Below, piece by piece: positions 22,477 to 46,986 of a stretch of 64,000 nt of DNA; position 1 is the stretch's first letter; every line of letters begins with the position of its first letter. The DNA lies in contig NZ_FOZM01000001.1 of assembly GCF_900114675.1 (NCBI RefSeq), positions 1,488,001-1,552,000 on the forward strand. The letters are read 5' to 3'. The notes under the pieces were generated by a model. That model was not told the origin of the DNA and did no database searches. It saw nothing but the letters and a program-made list of their open reading frames with translations. Source of the stretch: Yoonia litorea. GTDB taxonomy: Bacteria; Pseudomonadota; Alphaproteobacteria; Rhodobacterales; Rhodobacteraceae. The position numbers and the translations under genes are program-made.

Positions 22477-23733
22477 TCAGCGTTCCTGAGACTGTCCAGC
22501 AAGCGGCGCAATCAGCTCTTCTCGCAAAAGAAACGTGAGGGACGCCTGCACGTCGCCCTGCAACTGCGAAGCATCGACATCAGGATAGATCACCGCAAGC
22601 GCGGCAAGGATATCTGCGCCGCTCGCTGGCTCTGCCGTCAGCTTCCACACAATCGCAAGCAGCGGGTTGAGTTGGTGGATGGCCAACCCCCTCTCGCTTG
22701 CCACATAGATGGCCCGGTCGGTCTCGACCTCGGTCGTGCCTGCCGTCTGACGATAGCGGGTTGCCATATCGGCGGTCTGCGTGCCCCTTTGCCAACCTTC
22801 TTCAAGCGGCGCGGGACGGGTCGGCAAATGCGCATCAGATGCAGAAAGGCGCGCCTCAGGCAGACCGTCCAACAGTGGCGAGGTCCGCAAAAGCGCCGTC
22901 GCCTCTTCCACATCACGATACACAAGCTTCAGAACAGGGATTGTCTGCACCAACGCCCTTGCCACATTCAGAATGGCTCCGGCATGGATCTGACGGCCAA
23001 AGTTCTGCTTGGTGATGACAGACAGGGCATCGTCGATCGGCACCGGTGAAAGGGCGGCCGGACCTCTATGATCGTCAGGCCGCTCAAGCAGAATGATTGC
23101 CCCGACAGGCATCGCTGTTCCTGCTTCAGGCAAGGACAAACCGCTCAGATAGCCATACTGGCGGTTGCGCAGTGTAATGGAATCATCCACCCATACAGCG
23201 AACCCCTCGGAAACCGTCTCAGGCAGCGGCAAACGCAATCGCGGTGCAATCCCGTTGGCCAGCCCCGAAATCACACGCGTCTGTGGATCAACGGCAAGTG
23301 GCACAAAGTCATCGGTAAAAACCGGATGACCCTCTCTGCCCAAGGCCGCTGTAAGAAGGCTCTTTCCGGCGCGTCTTTGGCTGGGGAATACGATCAGCCG
23401 GTCCCTGATCTGGATTGCTGCCGCATGCAGACACAAAAGATCGGGACGGCTGCGCAGCCGCTCCCAAGATATTTCGGCAATCAAGTCGCAGACAGCATTC
23501 ACCGGGTCATGCAGCACGGACGTCTTTTCGGCCAGCGGCGCATCAAGCTGCCACTGCGTCTCAGAATGACGGCTCAAACGCGCAAATGACGATCTGTCCA
23601 TGCCATCGCCATCCACTGCATTGAACGGCCAGGCGGGGATCGCGGCCTTGATCACCGGAAGCATCTCATCGCCCTGCGCCAACGCAAGCGGAGCGGCAAG
23701 ATTCTTGAATTTCACAAGCGTATCTTCGGTCAT
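22477..23733 (-). CDS. HPr kinase-like / PqqD-like fusion protein
   Basis: About 418 residues from ATG 23733 (GTG 23754 would add seven). The central part resembles HPr-kinase-type P-loop proteins: LLCLHAAAIQIRDRLIVFP leads into the Walker A PSQRRAGKS (about residues 117-125), followed by FTDDFVPL with the paired acidic residues that bind Mg2+ in HprK. The C-terminal 90 residues (RAIYVASERGLAIHQLNP, then a wHTH-like tail ending LLREELIAPL) look like PqqD, the small peptide chaperone or RRE fold used in RiPP maturation. HprK-like enzymes phosphorylate serine; a homologue phosphorylates the lasso peptide paeninodin. The gene directly follows, on the same strand, one for a Ser-triplet secreted protein, its obvious candidate substrate. 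Substrate and activity are inference. Confidence 0.82.
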   Translation of the reverse strand: MTEDTLVKFKNLAAPLALAQGDEMLPVIKAAIPAWPFNAVDGDGMDRSSFARLSRHSETQWQLDAPLAEKTSVLHDPVNAVCDLIAEISWERLRSRPDLLCLHAAAIQIRDRLIVFPSQRRAGKSLLTAALGREGHPVFTDDFVPLAVDPQTRVISGLANGIAPRLRLPLPETVSEGFAVWVDDSITLRNRQYGYLSGLSLPEAGTAMPVGAIILLERPDDHRGPAALSPVPIDDALSVITKQNFGRQIHAGAILNVARALVQTIPVLKLVYRDVEEATALLRTSPLLDGLPEARLSASDAHLPTRPAPLEEGWQRGTQTADMATRYRQTAGTTEVETDRAIYVASERGLAIHQLNPLLAIVWKLTAEPASGADILAALAVIYPDVDASQLQGDVQASLTFLLREELIAPLAGQSQER

Positions 23734-23816
23734 CGCAAAAAAGAATGCGGCCACCCGTGGGGTGACCGCAAGTCCTGAGTGAGTGTGTGAGTGTGTTAGT
23801 GTGGGCGAGAACTGGA

Positions 23817-24197
23817 CTAGAGGTCGCGCACGCAGGTGCTGCCATCCCAGTCACCACCCAAGGCTGCACAGTCCTCGGCCTTGCTCGCGCCTGACGCCAT
23901 CGTTGGCGAGCTTGCCTTGCTCGCTTCACTTGGTGCGCTGGCCGCGCTGACCTTGCTGGCCTCGGAAGGCGCGCTCGGTGTGGAAGCTTCACTTGGCTCA
24001 GATGGCGCGCTTGGCTCTGAAGGTTCACTTGGCGCGCTTGGCTCGCTTGGCTCGCTTGGCTCTGACGGTGCACTGCCTTCGGATGCATGTGCCATCGACA
24101 GCGTTGTAAACGCCGGAGCGGCATAAGCGGCGGCGGCAAGACCCCCAATACGGGCGAGCATCTTGCGGCGGGAAAGATCGTTGGTTTCGTCGGTCAT
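23817..24197 (-). CDS. Tat-exported serine-triplet repeat protein
   Basis: A 126-residue protein in three parts. The N-terminus is a Tat signal (LSRRKMLARIG, then an Ala-rich segment, cleavage near AHA, residue 38). Residues 39-98 are built of Ser-x-Pro/Ala triplets, with serine at every third position from 39 to 96 (20 serines) and Glu, Ala, Lys or Thr between. The C-terminus (CAALGGDWDGSTC, cysteines 110 and 122) could form a small disulfide-closed loop. I know no named family. AAGGA six bases upstream supports the start. The next gene encodes an HprK/PqqD-like fusion, suggesting that the serines are modified before Tat export. That is inference; a plain low-complexity surface linker is the alternative. 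Confidence 0.8.
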   Translation of the reverse strand: MTDETNDLSRRKMLARIGGLAAAAYAAPAFTTLSMAHASEGSAPSEPSEPSEPSAPSEPSEPSAPSEPSEASTPSAPSEASKVSAASAPSEASKASSPTMASGASKAEDCAALGGDWDGSTCVRDL

Positions 24198-24489: not shown

Positions 24490-25260
24490 ATGACGGCGAA
24501 GATGAAGCGCGTTTCTATAGTCACGTTGATCGCTGCGGCAGGCACTGCCGCGTTCATTCTGTCGGCCCAGGCTCAGGAAAGCCCCCTGCCCGACCTCGGT
24601 CTGCCAATCACCGATCCTGATGATATCGTCGCTGTTTGCGGCGGTGACCCCAGCGCAGGCGAGCCGCATTTCGAGGTATCCTGCGCGGCCTGTCACACGC
24701 TCAATAGCGACGAGTTGCACGGGGTCGGCCCAAACCTTTACGCGCTCTACGGGCGCACCGCAGGCAGCGCGCCGGGCTATGCCTATTCAGACGCGATGCA
24801 GACCGCCGGTGCAGAAGGTTTGGTCTGGGGCCGCGATACCCTGCGGGCTTTCTTGCTTGATCCGCAGTCGGTCGTGCCTGGCACCAGCAAATCACCAATG
24901 GCCGGTATGGACGATGAGGCCTACCGCACTGATCTGATGACCTACGTGCGGCTGACGACCACACCGCCGCCCCCTGCCCCCGAGGATGTGACCATCCCTG
25001 ACACGCTCTTGGCGATGGCAGGTGACGCGCCTTACGGCGAATACCTCTCGGCCGAATGCGCAAGCTGCCATGTGTCTGGTCAGGCCAGCGCAACCGGCGT
25101 CCCGCAGATCGACAACCTGACACGCGAAGCGATGATCCTTGCCCTGCTGCAATACCGGATCGGCGCGCGTGACAACCAGACAATGGCCACTGTCGCCCGC
25201 CAGCTCGGTGACGAAGAGATCGCGGCCCTCGCCGCCTATTTTTCACAACAACAGAATTGA
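24490..25260 (+). CDS. fccA: Dihaem cytochrome c, FccA-like subunit
   Basis: A 256-residue periplasmic protein with a signal peptide (to about residue 28) and two class I cytochrome c modules. Haem motif 1 is CAACH, with GPNLYALYGRTAG and the Met region SPMAGM; haem motif 2 is CASCH in the C-terminal module, where late methionines are candidate ligands. It would accept electrons from the FAD subunit FccB encoded 22 bases downstream in flavocytochrome c sulfide dehydrogenase. The ATG at 24490 follows AGGGAG; earlier in-frame codons have no support. The first module resembles c2/c550 cytochromes, so a wider electron-transfer role is possible. Confidence 0.88.
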   Translation: MTAKMKRVSIVTLIAAAGTAAFILSAQAQESPLPDLGLPITDPDDIVAVCGGDPSAGEPHFEVSCAACHTLNSDELHGVGPNLYALYGRTAGSAPGYAYSDAMQTAGAEGLVWGRDTLRAFLLDPQSVVPGTSKSPMAGMDDEAYRTDLMTYVRLTTTPPPPAPEDVTIPDTLLAMAGDAPYGEYLSAECASCHVSGQASATGVPQIDNLTREAMILALLQYRIGARDNQTMATVARQLGDEEIAALAAYFSQQQN

Positions 25261-25282
25261 ACCATCAGGGGAGAGAACAATC

Positions 25283-26551
25283 ATGGCATTGAATAGAAGA
25301 ACTTTCATCGGCACAGGCGTCGCAGGTGCGGCAACCCTCGCCGCGCCGACCGTTTGGGCTGGCGGGCACGGCAGACCGAAGGTTGTGGTGATTGGTGGTG
25401 GTGCCGGTGGTGCAACCGCCGCACGCTATATCGCCAAAGACAGCGCCGGTGCGATTGACGTCACGCTCATTGAACCGCAGCGCCGCTACTACACCTGTTT
25501 CTTCTCAAACCTCTACATCGGCGGCTTCCGCGAGATGGAAAGCCTCGGCCATTCCTACGCGACACTGGCCGCCAACCACGGGATCAACGTGGTGCATGAT
25601 CTGGCCGTCGGCGTTGATCGCGACGCCAAGACCGTGACAACAGCCGCCGGGCACGTCCTGCCCTACGACCGTCTGATCCTGTCACCCGGCATCGACTTCG
25701 TGGATGGCGCAGTCCCCGGTTGGGATGTCAGCGCACAAGGTGCGATGCCCCACGCCTATAAGGGCGGCACGCAGGCGCAACTGCTCAAGGCCCAGATCGA
25801 AGCCATGCCGGAAGGCGGCACCTTCGCCATGGTCGCCCCGCCCAACCCGTACCGCTGCCCGCCCGGCCCATACGAGCGGGTCTCGATGGTGGGACACCTC
25901 CTCAGCCAGATCAATCCGACCGCCAAGATCCTGATCGCCGACCCCAAAGAGGCTTTCTCCAAGAAGGGCCTCTTCGAGGAAGGCTGGGCCACCCATTACG
26001 AAGGCATGATCACATGGATCGGCGCGCCCGACGGTGGCGGCGATGTCAGCGTGAACCCCGACGCCATGACCATCACCATCAACGGCGAAGTGACGGAAGT
26101 GGACGCCTGCAACGTCATCCCTGCGATGAAAGCCGGTCGGATCGCCGATATTGCCGGTGTCACCGAAGGCAACTGGGCCCCTGTGAACGCCGCTGATCTG
26201 TCCTCCAAGATGGATGAGAACGTGCACGTGCTGGGCGATGCCTGCGCACAAGGGGATATGCCCAAATCAGGCTTCTCGGCCAACAGCCAGGCCAAGGTCT
26301 GCGCCAATGCCGTCAGAGGGGCGTTGACCGACAGCCGCGTCTTCCCTGCGCGGTTCTCCAACACCTGCTGGTCGCTGATCGCCACCAATGACGGCGTCAA
26401 GGTCGGCGCGACCTACGAGGCCACAGAGGAAAAGATCGCCCGCGTCGATGGATTCATCTCGCAAACAGGCGAATCCGTCGCCGTGCGCGAGGCGACCTAC
26501 CAGGAAAGCCTCGGCTGGTACGACGGGATCAGCAGCGACATGTTCAGCTAA
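25283..26551 (+). CDS. fccB: Flavocytochrome c sulfide dehydrogenase, FAD subunit
   Basis: A 422-residue flavoprotein that oxidises sulfide to sulfur or polysulfide in the periplasm. It begins with a Tat signal (NRRTFIGTG, cleavage near VWAGG). The FAD site is KVVVIGGGAGGATAARYI (residues 33-50). Two cysteines of the redox disulfide are recognisable in YRCPPGPYERV and SNTCWSLI. Length and motifs match FccB/SoxF. Good ribosome binding site (AGGGGAGAG). A terminator follows. No other sox genes are present in the window. Confidence 0.93.
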   Translation: MALNRRTFIGTGVAGAATLAAPTVWAGGHGRPKVVVIGGGAGGATAARYIAKDSAGAIDVTLIEPQRRYYTCFFSNLYIGGFREMESLGHSYATLAANHGINVVHDLAVGVDRDAKTVTTAAGHVLPYDRLILSPGIDFVDGAVPGWDVSAQGAMPHAYKGGTQAQLLKAQIEAMPEGGTFAMVAPPNPYRCPPGPYERVSMVGHLLSQINPTAKILIADPKEAFSKKGLFEEGWATHYEGMITWIGAPDGGGDVSVNPDAMTITINGEVTEVDACNVIPAMKAGRIADIAGVTEGNWAPVNAADLSSKMDENVHVLGDACAQGDMPKSGFSANSQAKVCANAVRGALTDSRVFPARFSNTCWSLIATNDGVKVGATYEATEEKIARVDGFISQTGESVAVREATYQESLGWYDGISSDMFS

Positions 26552-37664: not shown

Positions 37665-37967
37665 ATGACCGAGCAATCAAACCGTCTGGACCGTATCTAC
37701 GCCAAAATGAACCCGTACCAGCCAGAAACAGAAACTGTCCGAAAGATGTTCCCGCGATCCGAGTGGTGTGAGGGCCCTACCGACTTTGCAGCCGTCGTTG
37801 ACAGCGACGCTGTCTTATTCTGCCTAAAGATGCGTGAAACTGGCCCCTCAATTTCAGTTCTACTGGATGCCACCGAGGCAAGAGCCATAGCCCTCAGACT
37901 CCAAGACGCGGCCACATGCGCCGTCGGGATGAAGCTCATGGATATGGCGACAGAGGGAGGAGAGTAA
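37665..37967 (+). CDS. Small uncharacterised element protein
   Basis: A 100-residue soluble protein with no recognised domain. It starts at ATG 37665 (AAAGGA nine bases upstream) and ends in a TAATG overlap with the primase gene, so it is translated with it. Its place between AlpA and primase is common for small satellite proteins of unknown role. Confidence 0.65.
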   Translation: MTEQSNRLDRIYAKMNPYQPETETVRKMFPRSEWCEGPTDFAAVVDSDAVLFCLKMRETGPSISVLLDATEARAIALRLQDAATCAVGMKLMDMATEGGE

Positions 37968-40243
37968 TGACACACCCTTCGTACGTCCCCGAAGGACTCC
38001 CAAACCAATTCCTGAACTGGCGTCTCAAGGACGGTAAGAAGCTACCCTGTCGCCCTGACGGAACGATCTGTGACGCCCATGATACGGCGAACCACGTCGA
38101 TTACGCGACTGCTTCTGCTGCGCCATATGACGTCGCGTTCGCGCTACGTGCCGAAGATCCGTGGTTCTTCCTCGATCTGGACAAGTGCCATGAGGGAACG
38201 GATTGGTCACAGGAAGCCAAGAACATAGTCGGTTATTTCCCCGGCGCATGGATCGAAGTGTCCCAATCGGGAACCGGACTTCACATCATGGGACGCTGTG
38301 ATCCTTCGCAGTTACAGGACCGGCGCAATAAGTGGGATGGATGGCTTGAGTTCTATACGCAGGACCGATTCATCGCATTCGGTCCGCATGGGTGGTCGCC
38401 CATCGGCGGCACCGCGACCAACAAAGACTGGACACGCGAATTGCTGTCATTCGTTCCGCAACGGGAGTTCTTGGGTGAATTACTGGACGGGCGAGATCCG
38501 GCTTACACCGGACCCGAAAACGACGACGAACTGATTGCGATGATGCTCCGGTCATCGAGCAAGGCGTCAGCGTTCGGTGACGCTGCGACAGTCAAAAACC
38601 TGTGGGAAGCCAATGTGGCCGTCCTTGCCAAACAGTATCCGGCATATGAAGAGTCGCAGGACTTCGATCACAGTAGCGCGGACGCGGCACTGATGTCGCA
38701 TCTGGCGTTCTAGACCGGCAAAGATATGCCGCGCATGGATCGCCTGTTCCGCAAGTCGGCCCTGATGCGCGACAAGTTCGAGAAGCGGGCCGATTATCGG
38801 CGTAATACGATCCGGAATGCGGCGCGGCTATGCAAGCGGGTCTATACTGGGGAAGCAGATCGGGTCGCACAAACGCTGGATGACCGCTCTCCTGTTGATG
38901 CGATTGCCAAGGCATTTGTTTCATGTCAGGCCCATGCTGGTCGATGGATGCATGTCCAGGCAACGGGAAAGGACTACCTCTACAATGGCCGGCATTGGAG
39001 CATCTGCAGCAATGAAGAACTGCTGTCCGCAATCCGGGACTTCGTAGCTTTCAGAGTCAGAGGCCAAAGGGCCTCCCAACACAAACCAGCCTTCTGGGAG
39101 GAGGTGCGTAAAGCGGTTCGGATTGACCCATCCGTCGCTCGCGCCCCGGACGCCGACCTATCCCTTCTCAACACACCGGCGGGCACACTCAATCTAGCGA
39201 CAGGCCTAATGCAGGCTCACAATCCTGCGGACATGCTTACTCACATGACGGCGGTGGCGCCGGAACCATATCAGGGCACCCGATGGGATCGCTTCGTGCA
39301 AGAGATTGTCGGGCGCGACACAGAACTGGCCGCCTTTTTACAAGTCGCTATTGGCGCCGCGCTATCGGGCGCAGTTGACGATCACTGGTTCGCGCTTCTC
39401 TTCGGGCAGGGCAGAAATGGCAAATCCCTCTTCATCGAAACTGCCATCGATGGGTTGGGCTCCTACGCCATCCAGATACCCTCGCAGGCCCTGATGCCGG
39501 CAAAGAACCCGGTTGGTCGCGATGTACTGGCGCAACTACAGGGAAAGCGCCTCGTTATTACGTCGGAGGTCGACTCGGCTGCGCACATCGATGAAGTGTT
39601 GATAAGGTCCCTTACGGGAGACAAGCGCATTTCCGCGCGCCCTCTGTACAGGGACACCTTCTCGTTTCGACGAAGCTTCAAGCTGGTGATGGTTGGTAAT
39701 CACCGGCCACAACTCAGAACTGACGATACGGCCATGCGATCCCGCCTAAAACTGGTTAGTCTCGATCAGGATTTCTCTGACGACCGCGGCGATCCATCAC
39801 TCGGAAAGACGTTTCAGAGCGAACTTGGCAGCGTTCTTCAATGGATGATTGATGGCAGTCAGAAATACAGAGAACTTGGAAGGCTGCCGCACAGCCGACA
39901 TGTTGAGGAACAGGTAGAGGACTACTTTTCTTCTCAGGCGACGGTCGAGCAGTGGATAGAAGAGCGCATTATTCGGGTCTGCGATGAAGGTCAGCCGGTT
40001 TCCTCATGGCCGAAAGCAGGAAATCTATACTCGGATTACAGTGACTGGTGTCGCTGCACCGGTACAAATCCCGCCAATCAGACACGGTGGTCGGATGCTA
40101 TGCAGCGCAATGGCTTTCGGAAGTTAAGATCAAACGGCTGGCGCTATGTCGGCGCCAAGGTTCACAGTGGGGGCCATCAGTTCTCGGCACTTCCCGCTCC
40201 AAGCAAGTTTTGGAACCTTTGCCCCCCCCTTCTTTTGTTTTGA
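37967..40243 (+). pseudogene. Primase-helicase interrupted by an amber codon
   Basis: One reading frame of 759 codons broken only by TAG at 38711-38713. The N-terminal part (to 38713) resembles the primase-polymerase module of P4/NrS-1-type replication proteins (FFLDLDKCH, VSQSGTGLHIMGR, FIAFGPHGW). The interruption falls in LMSHLAF-x-TGKDMPRMDRLFR, where relatives, as I recall them, read Trp or Tyr: TGG to TAG is a single change. The C-terminal part is a D5-type superfamily 3 helicase with Walker A LLFGQGRNGKSLF and sensor GNHRPQLRTDD. Reinitiation at ATG 38726 could yield the helicase alone, though no good ribosome binding site precedes it. An eight-base C-run at 40222-40229 may also have shifted the C-terminus. 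Confidence 0.82.
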
Positions 40244-44421: not shown

Positions 44422-46986
44422 CTAGAGATCAAGCGTTCTCGCAACGATCTGCTTAAGGCTGTCTGAGCTGTATGGTTTGTTGAGCACTTGAACTTCAGGG
44501 AACCGCTCAACGATAGCCGAGTTCGCGCCATACCCTGTTGCGAGGGCCGTGGGAATGCGCAACTCCAAACACTTCTCGATCACGGGGAGCGATGTCTCAT
44601 CGCCCAAATTGACATCCAAGAGTGCAAACGAGATGTCACGTTCACCGATGAGCTTAAGCGCATCGGCAACGGAGCTCGCGGTAAAGACATGCTCGGCACC
44701 CAAGTTTGACAGCATGTCTGACGCATCTAACGCGATGACCATATTGTCCTCCAGTACGAGGCACTGTCCCTCGAGTCGCACTTTCGAAGCTTTTTCGTTC
44801 TCTTCCACTTGCGGCCTTACAGTCTTCAACTCGGCCTTCCGAACATGGGCAGATGGCAAGACGAAGTCGGCTTCTAACCCTGTCACGCGGTATCGCGTAT
44901 CGGCCCGGCCTTTCAGTTCGAATGGAATGGAGCGCTCGATGATCGTCGTTCCGAAGCCACGCCGTTTAGGTGCCTGCACAGGGGGGCCGTTTTTCTCGCG
45001 CCAAGACAGCTTCGCGACCCCATCAGGCTGCAGACGGACATCAAGCGCAACGGAGCCCGATGAGTCGTTGAGCGCGCCGTACTTGGCCGAGTTTGTCACA
45101 AGTTCGTGTATCACGAGCGCAAGGGTCGAGAAAGCCGTGGGCGACAGATCAATCTCATCGCCGGTGATCATCACTCGCGAGGCTTTCGCCGTCAAAAACG
45201 CTTTCACCTCGGTTTCGACCAAGGAGCGGAAAGAGACCCAATTCCACTCTGTCTGTGTCAGCTGGTCGTGCGCTCGAGCGAGGGCAAAAATGCGATCTTC
45301 CAGAACGGATCGGTAGTCGTCTAGCGACTTCGCATCTTCCTGTCCCTGGGATACCAATCCACGAATAAGATTCAGAATGTTCCGGACGCGGTGGTTCAAC
45401 TCCGCCACGAGTAGCTCTTGCTGATCCTGCGCCTTCTTGCGTACCGCGTTCCGCTCATCGGCCATCTTCAGTACGACTTCCAGCAGCGTCACGCGAAGGG
45501 CGTCAGCTGCACGCAGTTCTGAACTTCGCCAGGGCGCGGATTGTCCGCGCACGACCTCTTGCCAGGCGTCAAAGCTTTTGCGTGGGGTTAGCCGGACACC
45601 GTTTGGACCAAGCTCGACGGGTTTTTCTGGGTTTCCCGCCCACTTTACGGAAGACGCGATCTCGCGACGGAACAGTACGAGATAGTCTCTTGGAGTACGA
45701 GATACAGGGAGGGCCAGAATACCGGCCACCCGATCTGCGAAGTTCTCAGCGGCCGGATAGCGCGTTGAGAGCGCATGAGTTTGGTAGACCTGTCCCGACG
45801 GCGTTGTGTTCAAAAACCTCGCCAGACCCATGAATTCTTCTTTGGTCGGTGTGGCTCCGGCCGACTTGTAGTCGCCATCCGTGAACACAGCAGCCCCGTC
45901 GAAGGGGATGACTTCTTTGATATTCTCAGACAGGACGTCGAAGGCCTCTGACATGGATTTGCCGCCAGAGAGCTGAGTCATCAACCGATCGTGCAACGAC
46001 CGCGCAAGATCCACTTCGGCCAGTTCATTTGTCAACTCCACCTGGGCGAGTTGATAGTTGAAAAGCTCTGAGAACAGCTCGATCTCGCTGCGGGTCTCGT
46101 AGCTGATGTGTTTTGCCATTTGGTGATGACACGCAAACAGTCCCCATAGCTTGCCATTTCGAATGATCGACACCGACATCGAGGCAGAGACGCCCATATT
46201 GCGCAGGTACTCGAGGTGGATCGGAGAGACCGCGCGCGTCACCGCCAGCGAAAGATCGAGCGGCTGACCATTTGGATCAAGGGAAGGGTGTATGGCATAG
46301 GTCTTTGCATTGACGTCCGAGATGATCCTTAAGGGGCTGCGGAGATAGAGCGCCCGTGCCTGCTTTGGAATATCGCTCGCGGGATAGCGTAGGCCCAGAA
46401 ACGGTTCCTGATCGGGTTCGGCAACTTCCGCGATGACTGTGCCGCTATCGTCTTCGTTGAACCTATAGACCATGACACGGTCGAATCCGGACAACAGCTT
46501 CACCGCACGGGCAGCTTCGCGCGACATGTCCTCGATCGTTTCGTGCCGCCTTACCCGACCAATCAAAGCGCGCACCGACGAACGATCCTGTTCGCTCTGT
46601 GTCCCGATCTGGCGCGGCTCGAATTCGAAGATCATATTCCGGTCGCTTTGACTGACTGAGATGTCAAAAAGCCTCTCATCTTCGAGAGCGGCATATGCGA
46701 ACACACGCGCCGTGCCGGTTTGATAGCTGAGCACCTGCATCTTCGTTCGCAGGTTGTGGACCGTCTCCTGGGGGAAGATATCCGTGAACCGTGAACCAAC
46801 AATGCTTTGGGCGTCGAGCCCAAGAATGGTGCCACAGTTCTCCGAGGCACACGTCACCATCCAGTCTGACGACAGCGCGATCAAACACCCGTAGCTTTGG
46901 ACACGCCCGAGAATATGGATCGGTTCGCGGTCGCAATTGGTCAGATCGTAGTCTTGCTGTTGCTGGATTGGGTCTGTCTCAGGCAT
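44422..46986 (-). CDS. bphP: Bacteriophytochrome histidine kinase with fused receiver
   Basis: An 854-residue red/far-red photoreceptor. Domain order is PAS (with biliverdin-binding Cys18 in TNCDREPIHILGRVQSYG), GAF (LRYPASDIPKQARALYLRSP), PHY, an HWE/HisKA_2-type kinase (AELNHRVRNILNLIRGLV), ATPase, and a C-terminal receiver (about 742-854) with phospho-acceptor Asp791 in FALLDVNLG and Lys837 in LNKPY. Light probably sets autophosphorylation and transfer to its own receiver; the downstream partner is unknown. GGGAGAG six bases upstream supports the ATG. It overlaps the haem oxygenase gene by eight bases. Confidence 0.95.
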   Translation of the reverse strand: MPETDPIQQQQDYDLTNCDREPIHILGRVQSYGCLIALSSDWMVTCASENCGTILGLDAQSIVGSRFTDIFPQETVHNLRTKMQVLSYQTGTARVFAYAALEDERLFDISVSQSDRNMIFEFEPRQIGTQSEQDRSSVRALIGRVRRHETIEDMSREAARAVKLLSGFDRVMVYRFNEDDSGTVIAEVAEPDQEPFLGLRYPASDIPKQARALYLRSPLRIISDVNAKTYAIHPSLDPNGQPLDLSLAVTRAVSPIHLEYLRNMGVSASMSVSIIRNGKLWGLFACHHQMAKHISYETRSEIELFSELFNYQLAQVELTNELAEVDLARSLHDRLMTQLSGGKSMSEAFDVLSENIKEVIPFDGAAVFTDGDYKSAGATPTKEEFMGLARFLNTTPSGQVYQTHALSTRYPAAENFADRVAGILALPVSRTPRDYLVLFRREIASSVKWAGNPEKPVELGPNGVRLTPRKSFDAWQEVVRGQSAPWRSSELRAADALRVTLLEVVLKMADERNAVRKKAQDQQELLVAELNHRVRNILNLIRGLVSQGQEDAKSLDDYRSVLEDRIFALARAHDQLTQTEWNWVSFRSLVETEVKAFLTAKASRVMITGDEIDLSPTAFSTLALVIHELVTNSAKYGALNDSSGSVALDVRLQPDGVAKLSWREKNGPPVQAPKRRGFGTTIIERSIPFELKGRADTRYRVTGLEADFVLPSAHVRKAELKTVRPQVEENEKASKVRLEGQCLVLEDNMVIALDASDMLSNLGAEHVFTASSVADALKLIGERDISFALLDVNLGDETSLPVIEKCLELRIPTALATGYGANSAIVERFPEVQVLNKPYSSDSLKQIVARTLDL

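Follow-up and report, generated by a model that had tools for sequence, protein, structure and literature searches.

A candidate RiPP-like system in Yoonia litorea in which a Tat signal may double as the leader for an HprK-like kinase fused to a PqqD domain

What is the role of a small candidate export protein that carries a serine at every third residue, and what does it have to do with the next gene, which joins an HprK-like kinase to a PqqD-type domain? Both genes were found in a 64,000-nucleotide stretch of the Yoonia litorea genome, referred to here as the window. The original prediction had placed a serine-triplet Tat protein and an HprK-PqqD fusion on the same strand, and this observation is confirmed by ORFs at 23817-24197 and 22477-23754, both on the minus strand. 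Its interpretation, that the PqqD domain grips the peptide, the kinase phosphorylates the serines and the product leaves by Tat, is partly supported. We regard a RiPP-like maturation system as the probable answer: the Tat signal would serve as the leader bound by the PqqD-type domain (RRE), the fused kinase would phosphorylate rod serines, and Tat export would follow.

The anatomy of the peptide, as read from the window, is as follows:
23817..24197, minus strand: ORF of the putative substrate peptide, 126 aa, with a Tat signal/leader, a Ser-triplet rod and a C-x11-C tail (ORF list, sequence reading, relatives)
24084..24197, minus strand: twin-arginine signal peptide, residues 1-38, with RR at 10-11 and AHA at 36-38, and a proposed double role as RRE leader (sequence reading, alignments of leaders)
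24108..24125, minus strand: YAAPAF, residues 25-30, inside the signal, a motif of the RRE-binding type YxxPx[hydrophobic] (leader alignments; motif definition from PMC13381572)
23910..24083, minus strand: serine rod, residues 39-96, of 20 uninterrupted Ser triplets (sequence reading)
23832..23870, minus strand: C-x11-C tail, residues 110-122 (C110, C122), CAALGGDWDGSTC (sequence reading)

The twin Arg, the hydrophobic stretch and the AxA site are all present, which makes the peptide a candidate Tat substrate. Serines occupy positions 39, 42 and so on to 96 without a gap, and when the mature region was shuffled 20,000 times, no run of 20 triplets arose (maximum 10). The 26 serine codons of the whole gene comprise 16 AGY and 10 TCN codons. 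Since no single synonymous change turns an AGY codon into a TCN codon, this mixture indicates that selection keeps serine itself, and it argues against a copied DNA word or DNA repeat artefact as the origin of the period. Tails of the C..GG..C type, similar to that of the window peptide, occur in several relatives and are absent from others.

The features of the second protein are numbered throughout on its 425-aa ORF:
22477..23754, minus strand: HprK-like kinase fused to a PqqD/RRE domain, 425-aa ORF with probable start at ~23733 (ORF list, Pfam, NCBIfam)
22879..23448, minus strand: HprK-like domain, approximately residues 103-292 (kinase-homologue profile against HPr kinase structures 3tqf and 1jb1/1kkl)
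23359..23385, minus strand: P-loop PSQRRAGKS, residues 124-132, with AGKS at 129-132 (K131 in 71 of 72 homologues)
23308..23313, minus strand: catalytic-type Asp pair D148 D149 (D149 in 71 and D148 in 70 of 72 homologues)
22501..22728, minus strand: RRE (PqqD) domain, approximately residues 343-418, with N363, W370 and D401 (PF05402, RRE structure matches)

The true start is probably an internal ATG, seven codons in (~23733), because relatives begin near the 'MTEDT...' position. The NCBIfam model HprK_rel_A (TIGR04352) matched the protein with an E-value of 1.9e-8, yet at 33.8 bits against a curated cut-off of 200. A profile built from the kinase homologues matched HPr kinase structure 3tqf with an E-value of 0.00074 and gave a weak match to 1jb1/1kkl at 0.057, the similarity being confined to the H/P-loop/DD part; neither of the full HprK models, TIGR00679 and PF07475, is among the matches listed for the window kinase. 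In this clade another residue stands in place of the first P-loop Gly. Loss of P-loop residues had been named in the original prediction as a sign against it, and K131 and D149 proved to be kept in all homologues but one. The sole exception, L137:7824-8738 in genome G174, is an HprK-like frame without the P-loop Lys and the Asp pair, and no leader was found in that genome.

For the C-terminal domain, PF05402 (PqqD) matched residues 358-415 with an E-value of 1.5e-6 and 28.8 bits against a gathering score of 23.4. The kinase-homologue profile also matched the RRE structures of TbiB1 (5v1u, E 1e-6) and LppB (9x8z, E 2.7e-6), as well as TfuB1 (6jx3) and, weakly, 9x90 (PbaB1, E 0.032). These matches assign the predicted domain to the PqqD/RRE superfamily.

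The two genes travel together. Among 119 relatives, a kinase match was found in 17 and a peptide match in 17. Peptide matches with an E-value of 1e-12 or better were obtained in 12 genomes, all 12 of which contain the kinase; the other five (G012, G013, G020, G034, G053), in frames 410-1010 aa long, had E-values from 1.2e-5 to 1.7e-7. The initial search gave no peptide match for five kinase genomes (G019, G029, G085, G086, G097), and a leader was later found in the last three of these. A search of contigs with a profile of closer homologues yielded 18 named loci, mainly from Loktanella, Yoonia, Aliiroseovarius, Tabrizicola and Rhodobacter, and one of them is an unfused system in a Desulfobulbaceae MAG.

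Outside the window, a YxxP-Tat peptide lies upstream of the kinase in 27 of 29 fused-kinase loci, as counted after removal of five duplicates (the script count was 28, from which L052 was discarded as spurious). The two loci without a peptide are L052 in G029, where the regex match contains no serine, and L138, where the kinase frame is truncated. The homology match of the fused kinase at L052:9221-10381 crosses a TGA, and this copy may be decaying. Upstream of unfused kinase frames the peptide pattern was found in 16 of 38 cases, one of which (L107) was judged spurious. The background of this loose regex is 358 matches in 4260 random windows (8 per cent) in some frame, and three matches were discarded by eye: L052, L107 and 'YMKPP' in L121.

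At the level of whole genomes, 385 alphaproteobacterial genomes include 46 with the kinase (E <= 1e-10), 35 with the leader (E <= 1e-8) and 33 with both (Fisher p 9.6e-35). The leader threshold was set after the list had been seen, and in 13 genomes that supplied the profile the leaders had been chosen for nearness to kinases; without these 13, the remaining 372 genomes include 22 with the leader, 33 with the kinase and 20 with both (p ~2e-22). The co-occurrence in related genomes that the original prediction had proposed as a check is thus strongly confirmed. When the leader threshold is relaxed to E <= 1e-3, 44 genomes are retrieved, and none of the nine extra genomes contains the kinase; in eight of the nine the match lies in a frame longer than 400 aa. 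The leader occurs without a kinase in G184 and G445, and 13 of the 46 kinase genomes, G174 among them, have no leader. Several peptides are located at least 30 kb from the kinase or on another contig, so that the link between leader and kinase does not depend on adjacency alone. A search of the window genome found no further leader peptide; the second match (E 2.05) was taken as chance.

What could the kinase protein recognize in its partner? In an alignment of 18 rows gathered by BLAST without use of the motif, residues R10, R11, G18, Y25, P28, A36 and A38 (window numbering) are common to all rows; one rod-bearing BLAST match without YxxP (L056) was excluded. RR and YxxPx[hydrophobic] are also present in all 35 leaders read at profile matches, 24 of which lie outside the profile. 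The profile itself consists of 33 leaders chosen with a pattern containing R-R, Y and P, and the invariance of these letters within it is no evidence alone. Among 30 ordinary Tat signals (PF10518 matches listed for 13 genomes, part of a longer list and including near-duplicates such as L150/L151), none contains YxxPx[hydrophobic], which argues against YxxP as a general Tat feature. The NCBIfam models TIGR01409 (TAT_signal_seq) and TIGR02811 match seven and nine of the 33 profile leaders, respectively, with E-values up to 0.01, and the window leader is absent from the TIGR01409 matches listed.

According to PMC13381572, [Y/W]xxPx[hydrophobic], here with Tyr, is the leader motif bound by the RREs of lasso peptides and LPP, and the substitutions Y-16A and P-13A weaken LppB binding. 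There, D70 of LppB bonds the leader Tyr and N33 helps to fix the kink at Pro. In a profile alignment to 9x8z, with residues of that structure counted from the Met after the tag, these two positions align with D401 and N363 of the window protein. D401 is Asp in 57 of 58 RRE rows; at N363, 39 rows have Asn, 18 have Asp and one has Glu. The idea that PqqD grips the peptide thereby gains a specific basis at the level of sequence, namely YxxP in the Tat signal and matching pocket residues. Recognition is the new element, in that the RRE-kinase seems to grip YxxP inside a Tat signal. A natural exception, although a single case, appears to fit: at L056:4297-5679 in G019, a 293-aa kinase frame without an RRE adjoins a Ser-triplet protein, and YxxP is missing from the signal of the latter.

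In the proposed mechanism, the RRE would bind YxxPxF in the hydrophobic part of the Tat signal through strand addition, the mode in which leaders are bound by LppB and the B1 proteins of lasso pathways, and the HprK-like domain would move phosphate from ATP onto rod serines, the first of them 14-20 residues after the Tyr, possibly advancing along the rod. A signal held by the RRE would be hidden from TatC, and release after modification would permit Tat export, followed by cleavage after AHA by signal peptidase. The product would be a periplasmic or surface rod, and if it adopts polyproline II with three residues per turn, its phosphoserines would form a line along one face. The precedent comes from the paeninodin and LPP clusters, whose HprK-like kinases phosphorylate Ser of RRE-bound peptides; for LPP the site lies 18 residues beyond the Tyr, as counted from the numbering in PMC13381572. 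The apparent grip of the kinase on the export signal suggests that the serines are phosphorylated in the cytoplasm before export. An LPP/paeninodin-like phosphorylation system with the Tat signal as leader is the most likely identity of the pair, in which phosphorylation, its sites and its role are putative, and the best inference is that the kinase would add phosphate to at least some, perhaps all, of the 20 serines. Binding of metals or the cell wall by the rod is a speculation.

Control of a Tat signal by a partner has a known counterpart. The Tat redox enzyme maturation proteins of the TorD/DmsD type are cytosolic and hold the Tat signal until maturation is done; their fold is unrelated to the RRE, whereas the binder proposed here is an RRE joined to an enzyme. 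It is very improbable that the kinase-RRE acts mainly as such a Tat proofreading chaperone, with ATP binding or hydrolysis controlling signal release and phosphorylation secondary or lost. Redox enzyme maturation proteins do bind the cores of Tat signals (PMC3316669), and for bufferins it was proposed that a partner protein masks the Sec signal (PMC12452194), but the retention of H110 and the Asp pair in 70-71 of 72 homologues is more than a pure chaperone needs.

Phosphorylation of rod serines also draws on the rod sequences of relatives. An excess of Ser-x-x-Ser was significant (p < 0.01, 2000 composition shuffles per peptide) in 25 of 28 peptides, i.e. that of the window and 27 others. The other two letters of the triplet vary among peptides and include E-P, A-P, R-P, G-A, P-Q, A-A and G-S, and Thr occupies some triplet positions (L121, L048). 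Three cores show no significant triplet period: L123, L126 and L118, the last of which repeats every five residues. In another class of the phylum, probably Gammaproteobacteria, the fused systems of four genomes (L209, L211, L213, L214) have leader peptides that repeat S-R-P-x-Y with a period of five; the tail WERDGVIE is common to three of the four. With these systems included, the fused kinases seen are as a rule accompanied by densely and regularly spaced serine, and a period of three is usual within Alphaproteobacteria. Many unfused relatives have Ser-poor cores, so that the serine rod is dispensable for the kinase family.

In unfused relatives the kinase and PqqD are separate genes, and the three adjoining genes tested encode NTP_transf_5 (PF14907). 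This family is present in 29 of 35 leader genomes compared with 45 of 350 others (p 6.3e-18), and in 26 of 28 unfused compared with 8 of 17 fused genomes tested. The peptides of unfused systems are short with PSPC...C cores, and in a set of them a single [S/T]xC is kept ~17-21 residues beyond the Tyr. At L177, L179, L183, L184, L190-L193, L195-L198, L200, L201, L203 and L204, short YxxP-Tat peptides were observed whose core has [S/T]-x-C or [S/T]-x-x-C, some in tandem (two or three) and some far from the kinase. A search for NTP_transf_5 in the window genome did not find it. The original prediction of a minimal two-gene system holds for that genome, with no NTP_transf_5 and one leader peptide, but it describes one extreme of a broader family, in which further parts occur.

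These relatives bear on how many serines are modified. It is unlikely, though worth keeping in view, that only one or two leader-proximal serines receive a phosphate chain or phosphate-linked sugar, as in LPP and paeninodin, and that the remaining rod stays unmodified and serves to keep the domain at a distance from the membrane or surface. The enrichment of NTP_transf_5 in leader genomes and the single retained [S/T]xC of unfused relatives favor such a single site, as does LppK, which modifies S3 of the core only, with several phosphates on that one Ser (PMC13381572). Nevertheless, NTP_transf_5 was not found in the window genome, and a serine fixed at every third position while the other letters change freely (A-A, G-S) is needless for a spacer. 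Phosphorylation along the rod, the reading preferred here, has points against it as well. The Thr residues at triplet positions count here, since the LppA variant S3T was not phosphorylated according to the same source, and the list further includes the multiple phosphates that LppK places on one Ser, the changed P-loop Gly, the three non-periodic cores, the S-R-P-x-Y class, the Ser-poor unfused cores, L052 and the 13 of 46 leaderless kinase genomes.

The leader and rod are not restricted to small peptides. In three loci (L051:368-1708, L053:10493-12034 and L055:9651-11249), a subtilase-type protein has a YxxP-Tat leader and a Ser-rich stretch; its gene is located upstream of the peptide gene, and the PF00082 scan covers L053. 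The earlier statement that no protease lies nearby is correct for the window neighbors scanned and fails for these three sister loci, where the subtilase-type protein is itself a leader-bearing substrate candidate. A histidine kinase gene comes after the kinase in 7 of 29 fused loci (L048, L049, L113, L114, L116, L117, L118), five of which also contain a response regulator (Pfam scans cover L118 and L117). In all seven, a leader-bearing, Ser-rich protein is encoded between the kinase and the histidine kinase. Four of the five such proteins tested have PepSY matches (E 3.8e-6 to 0.0033), one of them above the Pfam cut-off, and the fifth has no Pfam match. The presence of leader and rod on both subtilase-type and PepSY-like proteins points to a portable module. 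The kinase, the PepSY-like rod protein and the histidine kinase possibly form a regulatory operon that has the modified rod protein as its input.

Rods rich in Ser, Thr, Pro and Ala are classic O-glycan acceptors. A rod that serves as a glycosylation acceptor or an unmodified linker, with the kinase target elsewhere (the tail of the protein, the neighboring two-component system or a metabolite), is nonetheless improbable. Thr in place of Ser at some triplets would suit an acceptor or linker, as would the locus of one unfused system (G280), which is of the exopolysaccharide type with glycosyltransferase-like, amidotransferase and NDP-sugar dehydrogenase genes, and the histidine kinase genes of the seven fused loci would suit another target. 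On the other hand, the peptide gene is the constant neighbor and a leader-binding domain is joined to the kinase, and a scan of 13 window proteins detected no glycosyltransferase. LPP clusters are often co-localized with capsular polysaccharide loci, as stated in PMC13381572.

Taken more broadly, the data can be read as a widespread RiPP-like class with one signal for two jobs, in which YxxP inside a Tat signal recruits an RRE-kinase that modifies the cargo and keeps it from the translocon until modification is complete. Members of the fused clade would then build a one-sided phosphoserine ladder that could be attached to whole proteins (subtilase, PepSY-like), a new exported phosphate-coated tag. 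We hold this extension tentatively, at somewhat under even odds. In bacterial RiPP pathways the leader and the export signal are as a rule two different elements. If true, a Tat signal doubling as an RRE leader would offer a direct test of how cells block export before modification, with predictions for the single residues Y25, P28, D401 and N363. The HprK-related kinases and PqqD proteins, whose family models name no substrate, would also gain a likely class of substrates, and the system hints at protein rods that carry phosphate outside the cytoplasm of bacteria.

Among known systems, LPP (LppA/LppK/LppB/LppS, PMC13381572) shares an HprK-like kinase, an RRE of the same family, the YxxP leader motif and, by alignment, the Tyr-binding Asp and the Pro-kink Asn. 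In contrast to LPP as described there, the window system joins kinase and RRE in one protein, has a Tat signal for its leader and has a serine rod for its core, and entire subtilase-type or PepSY-like proteins can bear such a rod. The 'uncharacterized NTP transferase' of that source, taken as PF14907, has its gene in many unfused relatives and was not found in the window genome, and neither an SpI-like leader peptidase nor an MsbA-like exporter, both described for LPP, is among the immediate neighbors of the window pair. Lasso peptides of the paeninodin type likewise depend on an RRE and have an HprK-like Ser kinase in their pathway, but no B2 protease or macrolactam synthetase was found beside the window pair, the latter being absent from the immediate neighbors scanned, and the leader residue is Tyr instead of Trp. 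The NCBI 'HPr-rel-A system' (TIGR04352/TIGR04353) shares an HprK-related kinase with a PqqD partner, and its model descriptions as shown name no substrate. The unfused relatives tested matched TIGR04352 in four of four cases and TIGR04353 in two of three; these matches are weak, and no HPr-rel-A score comes near its curated cut-off (22-60 bits for TIGR04352 with a cut-off of 200, and 19-21 for TIGR04353 with a cut-off of 35).

Bufferins, the MNIO RiPPs of PMC12452194, share a signal peptide in the place of the leader and the proposed masking by a partner. They differ in the use of Sec instead of Tat, of MNIO chemistry instead of a kinase and of a DUF2063-type partner instead of PqqD. The same text describes bufferins with Sec signals as a rare exception to the separation of leader and export signal, and PMC12636315 appears to offer a case from the lipoprotein pathway. 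No description of a Tat-signal leader read by an RRE-kinase was found among the literature matches listed, which cover open-license papers, and PMC12710340 and PMC7470986 gave no match to kinase terms.

In the window, the pair is flanked by a DJ-1/PfpI gene on one side and by cytochrome c and FCSD genes on the other. The latter, at 24490-26551 on the opposite strand adjoining the peptide, encode a cytochrome c protein (two matched stretches) and a flavocytochrome c sulfide dehydrogenase flavoprotein. A functional link to them was dropped, given the opposite strand and the fact that no such family was recognized among recurrent neighbors, where one recurrent opposite-strand frame (L043-L047) stayed without a family assignment. 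Further along, a D5_N/NrS-1-like primase gene at 38726-40240 is preceded by an ORF without a Pfam match (37916-38713), perhaps a mobile-element remnant, and positions 44422-46986 encode a bacteriophytochrome with an HWE histidine kinase.
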